Notes: generated from the letters alone by a model not told the origin. Positions 48,528 to 54,264 are shown, counted from the first letter of the stretch. The stretch: 64,000 nt of DNA from Sandaracinus amylolyticus (GCF_000737325.1 NZ_CP011125.1:5704001-5768000); one strand, 5' to 3'. Made by a program: numbers and translations.

Positions 48528-49352
48528 TCACGCGACGAGCTCGAGCGTCGCGACGCGCTGTCGCGCCTCGTCGGGGTGCGCGACGTCGCGCAGTGCGCTC
48601 GCCATGCCTCGGGCCGCGAGCCTCGCGACGTGCGCCACCCGCAGCAACGTCTCGCGGCTGCGCGTCGGGGCGACCAGCAGCACCAACACCGAGAGCGGCT
48701 CGGCGTCGGGCGCGTCGGTCGCGAGCGGCGGCGCGAGCAGCACGAGCGCGGCACGCGGCTGCGCGCCGGCGACCGCCGCGCAGAGCACGCCGACGCCCGC
48801 GCCGACGCCCGCTCCGACCTCTTCCTCGCGCGCGCGGAACGCCTCCGCGAGCACCGACGCGTCGGGCATGCGCGGCAGCGCCGCGAGGCGCGCGCTCGCG
48901 ATCTGGTAAGCGTCCTCGAGCGCGTCGCAGTGAAGCGCGAGCACCACGCGCTCCGTGTCGAGCAGCGGAGAGAGCCGATGTGCGCCCGCGCCGTCCTCCA
49001 GCGCGGCGCGCTTCGGGAACCGCCGCGCGACGTAGCGCTGCACCTCCGCGAGCTCTTCCGCGCCGAGGCCGCGCGCTGCGATCTCGAGGAACAGCGGCGC
49101 CGCCTGCGGCTCGTGCTCGAGGTAGCGCTCGACGAACGGGCTCACGCGATGTCCCACCTCGAGCAACAAGCTCGCGGGCAGGCCGAGCTCGCTCGCGATC
49201 GCCTCGAGGCGCTCGGGCGTGGGCGCGGCATCGAGACCGTGCTCCACGCGGCTCAGGTACGCGCTCGACACGCCCAGGCGGCGCGCGAGATCGCGCAGGC
49301 TCACGCCCGACTCGAGCCGCAGTCGCCGCAGCGTCGTCCCCACGTGGCTCAC
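48528..49352 (-). CDS. XRE-type transcription factor with degenerate PTS-EIIA-like domain
   Basis: 274 residues. Helix-turn-helix of the XRE/cro type (about 4-60: LRRLRLESGVSLRDLARRLGVSSAYLSRVEHG). The C-terminal domain (about 126-274) follows the EIIA-fructose/PtsN layout: LSPLLDTERVVLAL, REEEVGAGVGAGVGVL and LSVLVLLVAPTRSRETLLRVAHVARL. At the position of the phosphorylated His in GVAIPH there is a Cys (C191). The domain may therefore sense ligand or redox state rather than phosphate. The GTG start follows a GGAGG. It is the last gene of the antiporter operon, 4 bases after the second antiporter stop. Confidence 0.84.
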   Translation of the reverse strand: MSHVGTTLRRLRLESGVSLRDLARRLGVSSAYLSRVEHGLDAAPTPERLEAIASELGLPASLLLEVGHRVSPFVERYLEHEPQAAPLFLEIAARGLGAEELAEVQRYVARRFPKRAALEDGAGAHRLSPLLDTERVVLALHCDALEDAYQIASARLAALPRMPDASVLAEAFRAREEEVGAGVGAGVGVLCAAVAGAQPRAALVLLAPPLATDAPDAEPLSVLVLLVAPTRSRETLLRVAHVARLAARGMASALRDVAHPDEARQRVATLELVA

Positions 49353-49356
49353 GCTC

Positions 49357-51462
49357 TCACCTCCGCCGGCCCTTCGCGCACGGCGCCTTCGTCCTCGCCG
49401 ACACCGCGAGCGCGCGCGCGTCGTGCACCACCAGCACGGGCGCGCCCACGCGCGCAGAGAGCTCGCGCTCGGCGCGCAGTCGCCAGTGCGGCGCGAGCCC
49501 GAGCACGACCAGATCGAACGCGCGTGACGCGGTGATCGCGAGCAGCGCATCGCGCGGTGAGCTCTGCGACGCGCGCTCGCGCGACCAGCCGTCGGGGAGC
49601 GCACGAGCCGCGGCATCCGCGCCGACCGCGAGACACGTGACGCGCGTGCCCGCGCGCGCGCCGAGCCGCCGCGCGACCTCGACCGCCACGCGGTCCTCCT
49701 TCGCGCCCGCGTCGGCGACGAGGATGCGCCCGAAGCCGCCGTCCGGGACGCCGCGCTCGGTGCCGACGAGCACCGCGACCGTCGCACGCGCGCGGCGCAC
49801 CACCTGCGCGACCACGCCGTCGAGGCGCCCCTCGAAGAGCCAGGGCTCGTGGCCGCCCAGGACGATCGTCGACGCACGCTTGGCGTCCGCGATGCGCACG
49901 ATGTCGTCGGCGGGCGCGCTCGAGACGAACGCGAGCGGGCGCGCATCGACCGCGAGGGCGCGCGCCGTCGCGAGGAACGCGCTGAGCACGGGCGGCTCGT
50001 CGCGCGTCTCGCGGCGCAGCTCGGACGACGCGCGATCGCTCGGCTCGGCGAGGTGGAGCCCGAAGACGCGCGCGCCGTCGGCGCGCTCACCGACGAGCGC
50101 GTGCGCGGCGGCGGCGAGCGCGGGGCCCGAGCGCGGATCGGACACGCACGCGAGCACGACCTCCGGCGCCCTCGCGCTCGGCGCCGCGGTGCGCGCCGGC
50201 GCGTCGACGAAGCGCTCCTCGATCGCCGCGCGGTCGGGGAACACCCGGCGCAGGAGCGGCGTCGTCGCGAGCGTCGTCACCAGCGCCGTGATGACGAGCA
50301 TCGTGAACACCGTCGTCGAGATCACGCCGAGGTCGAGGCCGACGTTGAGCACGATGAGGCCCATGAGGCCGCGCGTGTTGAGGAGGATTCCGACCGCGCC
50401 CGCGTCGCGCCACGACCAGCCGCTGGCGCGCGCGACGAGCGCGCTGCCGCCGAGCTTCGAGACCGTGGCGAGGACGACGATGCCCGCGGTGACGAGCCAG
50501 TCGGCGCGCGAGTCGAGCAGCGCGAGCTCCGTGCGCAGGCCGCTGTGCGCGAAGAAGAGCGGAAGGAGGAGCCCGACCGTGATCGTCTCGAGCTTCTCGG
50601 CGAGCACCTCGGCGAGCGGGCCGTCCTTCGGGAGCACCGCGCCGAAGAGGAACGCGCCGAACAGCGCGTGCACGCCGAGCAGCTCGGAGACCGCGGCGAC
50701 GAGCAGCAGCGGGAAGAGCACGGCGGTGACCGAGCCCGCGCCGATCGCGCCCGTGCGCTCGACGCGCCGGACCACGCGCACGAGCACCGGGCGCAGCACG
50801 AAGAGCATCACCGCGACGAGCACGATGGCCACGCCGGCCACGCGGAGCCCGTCGAGCCACGCGGGGGCACGTCCGGCAGCGAGCAGGAGCGTGACGAGAC
50901 ACCACGCGCCGATGTCGTCGACCGCAGCGCACGCGATCGCGATCGCGCCGACGCGAGTCGTGAGCAGGTGACGCTCCGAGAGGATGCGCGCGAGCACCGG
51001 GAAGGCGCTGACGCTCGCAGCGGCGGAGAGGAACAGCGCGAACGGCGCGAAGGGCGAGCCCGCGCCGTAGCGCGCGTGCAGCCAGGGCGCGCAGGCGATA
51101 CCGAGCACCAGCGGGACGACGAGGCTCGCCGTGCCCACCGCGATCGAGGTGCGACCACGACCGTGCAGGAGCTTCGGATCGAGCTCGAGCCCGACGAGGA
51201 ACATGAAGAGCACGAGCCCGAGCTGGCTGAGCAGGCGCAGGCCGGAGAGCGACGCGGGCGGGAAGAGCCACGCCGAGACCGGAGGCGCGATCCACCCGAG
51301 CAGCGACGGGCCGAGCAGGATGCCCGCGACGATCTCGGCGACGACCACCGGCTGACCGAGCCGGCGCGCGATCGGCGCGAGCGCGCGCGACGCCGCCAGG
51401 ATCACGACGACCTGGAACAACACGCGCGCGAGCTCGAGGCTGGTGGGAGCGCCCATCCGCAT
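49357..51462 (-). CDS. CPA2-type cation/H+ antiporter with cytoplasmic USP-like domains
   Basis: 701 residues. Twelve or so membrane helices in the first 400 residues with the CPA2 landmarks GILLGPSLLGWI, FPVLARILSE and CAAVDDIGAWCL (ion-binding Asp pair), and HALFGAFLFGAVLP. The C-terminal 280 residues are soluble and resemble two universal-stress-protein units with a nucleotide-type loop (VVLGGHEPW, LVVLGLAPH). It probably exchanges Na+ or K+ for protons. The ion is not predictable from sequence. Paralogous to the gene at 51499. Overlap-free spacing of 36 bases to that gene. Confidence 0.9.
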   Translation of the reverse strand: MRMGAPTSLELARVLFQVVVILAASRALAPIARRLGQPVVVAEIVAGILLGPSLLGWIAPPVSAWLFPPASLSGLRLLSQLGLVLFMFLVGLELDPKLLHGRGRTSIAVGTASLVVPLVLGIACAPWLHARYGAGSPFAPFALFLSAAASVSAFPVLARILSERHLLTTRVGAIAIACAAVDDIGAWCLVTLLLAAGRAPAWLDGLRVAGVAIVLVAVMLFVLRPVLVRVVRRVERTGAIGAGSVTAVLFPLLLVAAVSELLGVHALFGAFLFGAVLPKDGPLAEVLAEKLETITVGLLLPLFFAHSGLRTELALLDSRADWLVTAGIVVLATVSKLGGSALVARASGWSWRDAGAVGILLNTRGLMGLIVLNVGLDLGVISTTVFTMLVITALVTTLATTPLLRRVFPDRAAIEERFVDAPARTAAPSARAPEVVLACVSDPRSGPALAAAAHALVGERADGARVFGLHLAEPSDRASSELRRETRDEPPVLSAFLATARALAVDARPLAFVSSAPADDIVRIADAKRASTIVLGGHEPWLFEGRLDGVVAQVVRRARATVAVLVGTERGVPDGGFGRILVADAGAKEDRVAVEVARRLGARAGTRVTCLAVGADAAARALPDGWSRERASQSSPRDALLAITASRAFDLVVLGLAPHWRLRAERELSARVGAPVLVVHDARALAVSARTKAPCAKGRRR

Positions 51463-51498
51463 GGAGAAGGTGCCGCCCCCCGCGCACGAACGGAAGCG

Positions 51499-53631
51499 CT
51501 ACTCGGCCGCCGCCTCGCGCAGCGCCGGCCGCGCGGCGGCGGCGGCTTGCTGCGCGGCGACGTCGTGGGTGCGCAGGATGAGCAACGACGCGTCGGTCTC
51601 CTCCGCGAGCCGCTCGTGGCGCACACCGAAGATCGCGGGCTCGATTCCCCACGCCTTCGAGACGCCCACGACGACGAGATCGTGATCGGCGCGCCGCACC
51701 GCGGACACGACGGCGCCGACGGGATCGTCGCTGCGCGCCTGCTCGATCGAGACCTCGGCGCGCTGGCTGTCGCTCGCGGACGACGAGACCGCGGCGCGCA
51801 GCTCGGCGTCCGTGGCCGCGCCGTCGCCGCTCGGCGGGACGATGTGCAGCACGGTCACCGGCACACCGACCGTCGCGCCGATGCGCCCCGCGGCGCGCAG
51901 CGCCGGGAGGTCGCGCGCGACGTCGCGGCACGGCACGAGGATGCGCGTCCACGGGTCGAAGCGACGCTCGAGGTAGACCGCGACGTCGGCAGGCGCGTTC
52001 GTCATCACGTCGTAGACGGCGCCGCCGAGGATGCGCCGCGAGATCACCGGCTTGTGCCAGCCGAGCAGCACCATGTCGGCGCCCTTCACGCGCGCGAGGT
52101 CCGCGATGTCCCGCCCCGGCCGCTCCGACGCGAACACGAGCGGCCGCACCTCGATCGACTGCTCCTGCGCGGCGCGCAGCATCGGCTGCAGCGCGAACTC
52201 CTGCGCGGGCAGCTCGGGCGTGCCGTCGAGATCGGTCATCGCGTGCTCGTCGCCGCGGCGCAGGTGCAGCCCGTACACGCGAGGACGACGGCCGCTCGGC
52301 ACGAGCGCGCGCGCGAGGCGCAGCAGGCCGGGGCCCGATGCCGGAAGGCTCACCGGCACGAGCACGGTGAACTCGTCGGGCTCGCTCTCGTCGCGCGCCG
52401 CCTCGCGCATCTGTCGCAGCGGGTAGAGCCACTGCAGGAACGGCGTCGTCATGAACGTCGTGGCGAGCGCCATCATCACCATCATCGCGAACAGCGCGGG
52501 CGAGATGACGCCGAGGTCGAGGCCGATCGTCAGGATGACGAGCTCCATCAGACCGCGCGTGTTCATCAGGATCCCGAGCGCGCTCGACTCGCGCCACGAG
52601 AGCCCGGTCATGCGCGCCGCGAGGGTCGATCCCCCGAACTTGCCGCCGACCGCGACGAGCATGATCAGGCCGAAGAAGATCCACATCTCGGCGCCGCTCA
52701 CGAGGCCGATCTGGGTGCGGAGGCCCGCGTTCGCGAAGAAGATCGGGAGCAGGAAGACGACGGTCACGTGCTCGAGCTTCTCGGCGAGCTCGTGCACGAG
52801 GCCTTTGTCCTTCGGCATCACCGCGCCGATGCAGAACGCGCCGAAGAGCGCGTGGATGCCGAGGTACTCGGTGGTCCACGCCGACGCGAGCGCGATGAGC
52901 AGGACGACCGCGAGCAGGTCCTGCGTGACTCGCCCGGTGTTGTGGTAGCGCTTCTCGATCAGCCCGAGCGCGGGGCGCACGAGGAAGAGCATCGCCAGCA
53001 TGTACGCGACGGTGCCGGCGAGGGTGATCCAGAGCGGCGTGTGCAGCGACTCGGCGCGCACGATCGCGATGACGACCGCGAGGATCGCCCACGCGGTCAC
53101 GTCATCCACCGCGGCGCACGCGATCGTCACCGCGCCGACCTTGGTGCGGACGAGGTTGCGCTCCTGGAGGATGCGCGCGAGCACCGGGAACGCGGTCACG
53201 CTCATCGCCGCGCCCATGAAGAGCGCGAAGCCGTCGAACGACACCGACGCGTCCGAGAGCTGCGGATAGAGGTGCAACGCGAGCAGCGCGCCGAGGAAGA
53301 ACGGCGCGATGATGCTGACGTGGCTCGTGACGAGCGCGGCGTGGCCGCGGCCGCGCATGAGCTTCGGATCGAATTCGAGCCCGACGAGGAACATGAACAG
53401 CACGAGCCCGACCTGGCTCAGCGTGTTCAGGTGCACGAGGCTCTCGCGCGGGAAGACGAACGCGGACACGTCGGGCGCGAGCCATCCGAGGAGCGAGGGG
53501 CCGAGCAGGATGCCCGCGAACATCTCGCCGACGACCTGCGGCTGCTGGATGCGTCGGAACGCGAGCGAGACGATCCGCGAGACCACGAGGATCACGCCGA
53601 TCTGGAGGATCAAGGTCAGGAGGAAGTGCAT
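51499..53631 (-). CDS. CPA2-type cation/H+ antiporter with cytoplasmic USP-like domains (paralogue)
   Basis: 710 residues, same layout as its neighbour: MFAGILLGPSLLGWLAP, FPVLARILQERNL, CAAVDDVTAWAI and HALFGAFCIGAVMPKDKG in the membrane part, then LVFASERPGRDIADLA and LVVVGVSKAWG in the soluble USP-like part. The two copies are collinear over their full length but clearly diverged, which suggests an old tandem duplication. It follows the small 53645 gene by 13 bases, in an operon of four genes. Confidence 0.9.
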   Translation of the reverse strand: MHFLLTLILQIGVILVVSRIVSLAFRRIQQPQVVGEMFAGILLGPSLLGWLAPDVSAFVFPRESLVHLNTLSQVGLVLFMFLVGLEFDPKLMRGRGHAALVTSHVSIIAPFFLGALLALHLYPQLSDASVSFDGFALFMGAAMSVTAFPVLARILQERNLVRTKVGAVTIACAAVDDVTAWAILAVVIAIVRAESLHTPLWITLAGTVAYMLAMLFLVRPALGLIEKRYHNTGRVTQDLLAVVLLIALASAWTTEYLGIHALFGAFCIGAVMPKDKGLVHELAEKLEHVTVVFLLPIFFANAGLRTQIGLVSGAEMWIFFGLIMLVAVGGKFGGSTLAARMTGLSWRESSALGILMNTRGLMELVILTIGLDLGVISPALFAMMVMMALATTFMTTPFLQWLYPLRQMREAARDESEPDEFTVLVPVSLPASGPGLLRLARALVPSGRRPRVYGLHLRRGDEHAMTDLDGTPELPAQEFALQPMLRAAQEQSIEVRPLVFASERPGRDIADLARVKGADMVLLGWHKPVISRRILGGAVYDVMTNAPADVAVYLERRFDPWTRILVPCRDVARDLPALRAAGRIGATVGVPVTVLHIVPPSGDGAATDAELRAAVSSSASDSQRAEVSIEQARSDDPVGAVVSAVRRADHDLVVVGVSKAWGIEPAIFGVRHERLAEETDASLLILRTHDVAAQQAAAAARPALREAAAE

Positions 53632-53644
53632 CGATGCCTCCGGA

Positions 53645-54130
53645 TCACTCGGTGGGCGGCGTGGTCTCGAAGGTCACGTCGCGGCACGGCTCGCAGGACG
53701 CGGCGCGGAGCGCGCCGCGGATCCCCTCGCCGTCGATCCGCGCGTCGATGGCGAGCTCGCGGCCCGCGCAGGGACCCGACGAAGGCAGCCACGACACCTG
53801 CAGCCGCGAGCCCACGATCCGGCCGTCGGCGACGGTCGTGCCCGCACGCAGGTGGAGGAAGCGGCCCGACTGCTGGACCGCGATCGCATCCTCGCTGCCG
53901 ATGCCGAGGCACGCGCGCGCTTCGTGATCGGGGAGCGGCCACGTGCCCGCGACGACCGGCGGTGCCTCGAGCGACGCACCGGCGCGCATCACGACGAAGA
54001 GGCCTGCGAACGGCAGACCGACCAGCACCAGGTACGCGGCGGCGGAGCGCCACGCCGCGGCGCGCGTGGGTGGTGTCGAAGCTCCCTTCGACGAAGTCGT
54101 GTGCTCGGGCGGGCGCTGAGGTTCGCTCAT
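53645..54130 (-). CDS. Single-pass membrane protein, first gene of the antiporter operon
   Basis: 161 residues. A polar N-terminus of about 28 residues, one transmembrane helix (AAYLVLVGLPFAGLFVVM), and an extracytoplasmic beta-rich domain with three Cys (ARACLG, GPCAGREL, CEPC). No family recognised. It heads the operon and directly follows the palindrome at 54150-54169. Such a small protein could be an accessory or regulator of the antiporters, but this is inferred from position alone. Confidence 0.74.
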   Translation of the reverse strand: MSEPQRPPEHTTSSKGASTPPTRAAAWRSAAAYLVLVGLPFAGLFVVMRAGASLEAPPVVAGTWPLPDHEARACLGIGSEDAIAVQQSGRFLHLRAGTTVADGRIVGSRLQVSWLPSSGPCAGRELAIDARIDGEGIRGALRAASCEPCRDVTFETTPPTE

Positions 54131-54149
54131 GTCCGTAGCCTCGCAAGAT

Positions 54150-54169
54150 TGATAAGGTCTCGCTTATCA
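54150..54169 (-). promoter_or_regulatory. Operator-like palindrome before the antiporter operon
   Basis: TGATAAG and CTTATCA form perfect 7-bp arms with a 6-base spacer, 19-39 bases upstream of the first gene of the operon, overlapping the likely promoter. It is strikingly AT-rich for this genome. The half-site GATAAGCG recurs at 54672-54679 upstream of the decayed gene. A likely protein-binding site. The XRE regulator encoded last in this operon is a candidate binder. Confidence 0.55.
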
Positions 54170-54264
54170 GCGTGCAGACGGGGGGTCAAGGAAGGAAATC
54201 CCCCTGCGGCCGTGGCGCGCGTCGCGTCGGCGTGGCGAGCTCCCGCAGCGCGGCGATCACGTCG

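Follow-up and report, generated by a model that had tools for sequence, protein, structure and literature searches.

Bacterial antiporters have been described mostly as being controlled at the protein level, by glutathione (Kef), PtsN (YcgO) or nucleotides (others). The locus described here is assembled from kinds of protein that are already known, namely CPA2 antiporters, PtsN and XRE autoregulators on palindromes, the last typically acting as autoregulatory dimers (PMC12565409). The E. coli K+/H+ antiporter YcgO has a cytoplasmic region through which PtsN, in its unphosphorylated form, binds and inhibits it (PMC11808508). Among the open-access papers searched, we found none that describes a CPA2-USP antiporter with its own XRE-PtsN-like repressor and a conserved operator. 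Based on comparative sequence analysis, we propose with good confidence that such a repressor governs an ion-antiporter operon that is self-contained and under negative autoregulation.

The window, the whole stretch of 64,000 nucleotides that was analysed, carries the following features, listed in the direction of transcription:

54184-54189, minus strand: putative -35 TTGACC, 17 nt before TAAG (TTGAC[ACG] spacing pattern across loci)
54161-54166, minus strand: putative -10 hexamer TAAGCG, identical with the left operator half-site (assigned from -35 spacing)
54150-54169, minus strand: putative operator TGATAAG-N6-CTTATCA with core TAAG-N6-CTTA (sequence and conservation)
53645-54130, minus strand: small membrane protein of 161 aa, operon gene 1 (ORF)
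51499-53631, minus strand: CPA2 antiporter 1 of 710 aa, Na_H_Exchanger plus USP-like C-terminus (Pfam)
49357-51462, minus strand: CPA2 antiporter 2 of 701 aa, Na_H_Exchanger plus USP-like C-terminus (Pfam)
48528-49352, minus strand: XRE regulator of 274 aa with PtsN-like domain, GTG start (Pfam/NCBIfam)
49170-49331, minus strand: XRE helix-turn-helix, regulator residues 8-61 (HTH_3)
48558-48983, minus strand: EIIANtr (PtsN)-like domain, regulator residues about 124-265 (structure-profile and phmmer matches)
48780-48782, minus strand: codon of Cys191 of the window regulator, the phospho-His column (family alignment column)

Recomputation confirmed the four tightly spaced genes behind a palindrome that the initial annotation had described: the four minus-strand ORFs are separated, in transcription order, by 13, 36 and 4 bases. 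The first gene product has one N-terminal transmembrane segment and a probable periplasmic domain, and neither Pfam nor NCBIfam assigned it a family. Both antiporters match Na_H_Exchanger (PF00999; E 9e-61 and 6e-60) plus Usp in Pfam, which bears out their earlier assignment as CPA2 antiporters with USP-like domains. They share 42% identity. The nearest solved structure to antiporter 1 is NapA (4bwz), and the ion-binding DD pair of both proteins aligns with the NapA DD motif. The AVDD motif is present in 31 of the 33 regulator-adjacent antiporters compared and was not found in those of L029 and L101. The predicted activity is NapA-like cation/H+ exchange, with ion specificity and physiology inferred from family membership. 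Assignment to the glutathione-linked families was rejected, as the best scores were 70 bits for the KefC equivalog (NCBIfam cut-off 752) and 68 bits for KefB (cut-off 804). Antiporter 2 sits on long branches of the antiporter tree, which leaves its position uncertain; it has the look of a paralogue that evolves fast, antiporter 1 being the slowly evolving copy.

The helix-turn-helix of the regulator matches HTH_3 (1.8e-13) and HTH_31 (5e-13) in Pfam; the XRE/HTH_3 domain was matched in all 16 members of A1 and is the best-conserved portion of the regulator family. At the C-terminus, Pfam gives a sub-threshold PTS_EIIA_2 match (2.6e-4, 21.4 bits, cut-off 27). Searched by phmmer against solved structures, the regulator alone matches PtsN 4gqx at 3e-10, and the family profile finds PtsN entries at 4e-17 (3urr) to 5e-13 over residues about 120-263. 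These matches uphold the EIIA-like domain named in the initial annotation and firmly predict that the C-terminal half is homologous to PtsN (EIIANtr) across the full EIIA fold. A single-sequence structure model of the regulator reached a pLDDT of 44, too poor for fold searches.

As a set, the four genes were searched for in other genomes and their order is not conserved, whereas the antiporter-regulator pair is. The gene directly upstream of the regulator encodes an antiporter in 34/34 Myxococcota loci, comprising the window with 15 further loci of the discovery set and 18 loci of the held-out set. The junction gaps range from -22 to +37 nt where measured, and overlaps of 1 or 4 nt, as seen in translationally coupled pairs, are common. 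These comparisons define a conserved unit of two genes rather than four: a CPA2-USP antiporter followed by the XRE/PtsN-like regulator. The four-gene set was rejected as the conserved unit, being confined to the window, its sister species and two genomes with rearrangement. Among the loci examined, homologues of the small protein, together with a second antiporter, are present only in the sister species (L027), L028 and L029; in L028 an opposite-strand TolC-like gene lies between the two antiporters, and in L029 (G043) the operon consists of two halves that are transcribed divergently. With a regulator call at E <= 1e-20, the phylum-wide sample of 377 genomes contains 15 with the regulator, the window's own counted, and a profile search found it in 26 of 317 genomes of the class. 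The discovery set draws on the phylum-wide sample plus one additional relative. The pair is thus patchy and restricted to a minority of Myxococcota genomes, which argues against a core homeostasis system. Beyond Myxococcota, a contig search with the regulator returned only HTH-level matches (Stappia, a Phycisphaerae MAG), none with the EIIA-like part. In one genome the module is tied to inorganic-carbon uptake: L101:2183-8278 (G430) encodes a dabB-like protein (Proton_antipo_M), DabA (PF10070, 1.6e-256), a CPA2-USP antiporter and the XRE-PtsN-like regulator. A dabA/dabB-like gene was not found at the other loci examined.

The exact palindrome TGATAAG-N6-CTTATCA occurs once in the window, where 0.07 sites are expected even if three mismatches are allowed, and the perfect palindrome is present once in the single-contig genome of 10.33 Mb. 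In the discovery set, TAAG-N6/7-CTTA occurs exactly once at the operon start in 15 of 16 loci, the window included; dinucleotide shuffles predict 0.025 core matches in all 251 kb of discovery DNA. The motif was first spotted by eye in these loci, so that the clean test is provided by 17 held-out loci, some of them close kin of discovery loci (L088, L089). L097 was left out of the operator counts because its sequence ends before the operon start. The exact core lies at the operon start in 16 of the 17, and L102 has a one-mismatch form. Altogether, 31/33 complete loci have the exact core and 2/33 one mismatch (L102, and L028 with TAAG-N6-CTTG), the 33 loci being not fully independent, as near relatives are among them (e.g. 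L090-L095, L096-L100). One-mismatch core sites number 14 in 431 kb, and whole genomes contain 0-4 core matches each. Other core matches that were inspected (L046-L057) have different, seemingly unrelated surroundings, and in most of them the outer G and C (G-N-TAAG form) are missing. In L101 the operator is found at 2071, before dabB and 4 kb from the antiporter; since this site precedes dabB-dabA, the operator marks the operon start rather than the antiporter. In L029 identical arms lie within the 80-bp divergent promoter region, and upstream of the L104 operator there is another, imperfect copy that would suit tandem binding. Antiporter homologues in regulator-less genomes (L106-L108) have no site even with one mismatch, a weak control given that they match in the membrane part only.

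Several palindromes of related appearance were noted elsewhere. Two distant genomes have a common ATAAGCATTC[GA]CTTAT before a gene start (L046:898 in G000 and L052:1037 in G207); the start that follows the G207 copy of ATAAGCATTC-CTTAT resembles that of an ArsR-type regulator, and the pair is probably the site of a different factor. In L049, L056 and L057, at positions ~1000-1065, a different ATAAG-N6-CTTAT palindrome recurs in the same place and after the same preceding stretch; the respective genomes (G360, G386, G388) are related. At L028:4078-4110 (G005) a near-match, CAAAG-TGATAA-CTTAC, lies just before the TolC-like gene.

Operator spacing can be matched to the regulator. The N7 form is confined to L036-L041, a single regulator clade with support 100/99. 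G219 (L035) and G144 (L038) belong to the same family and genus, yet the operator of G144 has N7 and that of G219 has N6, and the G219 regulator groups with L033 and L101, not with the N7 clade. Thus, spacing follows regulator phylogeny and not the host. Comparison thereby supports the earlier idea of a self-regulated antiporter operon, as 33/33 complete loci carry the site (two with one mismatch) and its spacing tracks the regulator. Of the accompanying proposal that the XRE protein binds the palindrome, the comparative side holds (conservation, near-uniqueness, position at the operon start, regulator-linked spacing), the binding itself being predicted from sequence.

Promoter geometry suggests how such binding would act. 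In 13 of 31 loci, spread over four regulator clades, TTGAC[ACG] precedes TAAG by 17-18 nt, and in these loci TAAGNN takes the -10 position, so that the operator overlaps the core promoter; the remaining 18 have no recognisable -35 box. A generic sigma-70 scan, whose -10 rule requires T at position 6, returned no promoter at the window operator. Operator and start codon are mostly no more than about 60 bp apart, in L034 they touch, and the interval often holds Shine-Dalgarno-like sequence without room for a further promoter. We infer DNA binding and repression by the regulator: since the operator covers the -10, a bound dimer would exclude RNA polymerase, which points to autorepression. In the mechanism that we propose, the regulator would be co-transcribed behind the CPA2-USP antiporter, its dimer would bind GNTAAG-N6/7-CTTANC, a palindrome that lies across the -10 region of the one obvious promoter in the operon, and with polymerase shut out, antiporter and repressor would be repressed together.

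XRE proteins are capable of activating, and 18 loci have no recognisable -35 that would fix the geometry, hence the regulator might bind the palindrome yet activate the operon. Activator sites are usually upstream of the -35, whereas here 13 loci have the left half-site at the -10 position and the site is mostly ~60 bp or less from the start codon, directly adjoining it in L034; we regard activation as unlikely. The complementary arms could also be read as an RNA hairpin or the site of another factor, with the XRE protein regulating something else. Against this speak the near-uniqueness of the site in each genome, its constant location at the antiporter-regulator operon, and a spacer whose length tracks the regulator clade and not the host. 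Moreover, several arms are incompletely complementary while TAAG/CTTA is fixed (L031, L090-L095), as would be expected of protein half-sites more than of a hairpin. This explanation is therefore highly improbable.

The remaining alternative concerns the signal and not the site: repression could be an output of the PTS-Ntr, with NPr setting it by phosphorylating the PtsN-like domain. Of 33 family members, 24 retain His in the phospho-His column, as part of a P-H motif, and the others have different residues there; several genomes with P-H encode HPr as well as a stand-alone PtsN. The term "degenerate", given initially to the domain, consequently does not fit most relatives; it does fit the window genome, where the column holds Cys191, with Cys also in the sister species. 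Phosphotransfer in its usual form is excluded for the window protein, and about three changes of state are needed on the regulator tree. Of 16 module-bearing genomes, nine (G000 among them) yielded an HPr and seven did not. These seven are 80-96% complete, some of them no more than 80-92%, so that single absences weigh little; the seven jointly are not easily explained by gaps. Four of these seven (G219, G183, G144, G322) retain the P-H motif, which argues against phosphotransfer as the general input. Overall, we consider control by NPr unlikely.

Under the preferred reading, a repressor that shuts off its own antiporter operon, the PtsN-like domain would receive the inducing signal, and this is the least certain step. 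The route would most plausibly be contact with the cytoplasmic (USP) domains of the antiporter or an ion-linked ligand, and in the window genome it would not involve His phosphorylation. The first of these, contact with the antiporter, is our leading guess. It is made plausible by the PtsN-YcgO precedent and by a natural fusion in the window's own family: L044:942-3473 (minus strand, G005) encodes a CPA2 antiporter-Usp protein with a degenerate C-terminal EIIA-like domain (839 aa scanned; PTS_EIIA_2 1.6e-5, slightly below the Pfam cut-off). Such a fusion is consistent with a physical link between PtsN-like domain and antiporter. More tentatively, the domain may be a phosphorylation-independent transporter sensor that docks on the USP domains, such that the amount or state of the antiporter titrates the repressor off the operator; we hold this version to be possible but not probable. 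With a NapA-like exchanger as its predicted product, the autoregulated operon would match exchange capacity to stress from pH or cations. Another ion transporter that bears an EIIA domain was observed at L042:1136-3538 (plus strand, G235), a ClC chloride channel that has CBS and, at its C-terminus, an EIIA domain with the P-H motif intact (PTS_EIIA_2 7.8e-21).

A dedicated, co-transcribed PtsN-based repressor would be a compact, one-gene control of ion exchange, and docking with titration, if true, would constitute a direct feedback loop from transporter to promoter. Because the predicted operator is specified base by base, the claim is directly testable. Furthermore, the family ranges from domains that bear P-H to others that lack the His, and its host genomes from those that encode HPr to those in which no HPr was found; this natural series allows the roles of EIIANtr-type domains to be tested where no phosphorelay is present.

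Compared with known systems, the regulator resembles autoregulatory XRE/Cro-CI-type repressors of the DdrO, SinR and MsrR class in its N-terminal XRE HTH, the palindrome at its own promoter and the expected dimer. However, its C-terminus is PtsN-like and not a known XRE effector domain, and its target is an antiporter operon. With PtsN/EIIANtr, the output of the PTS-Ntr that is known to contact cation transporters such as YcgO (PMC11808508), the C-terminal domain shares full-length homology; here it is fused to a DNA-binding domain, the phospho-His is lost in the window lineage and HPr was not found in some genomes. The PRD-type regulators MtlR, LevR and CelR are likewise transcription factors with an EIIA-family domain, but the present regulator has no PRD match in Pfam or NCBIfam and a different HTH, and its operon contains no sugar-PTS genes. 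Finally, the antiporters share the Na_H_Exchanger fold with NapA, KefB and KefC, CPA2 antiporters with USP-like C-termini, and their DD pair aligns to that of NapA; they differ in scoring far under the KefB/KefC equivalog cut-offs and in having what would be a dedicated, co-transcribed repressor.
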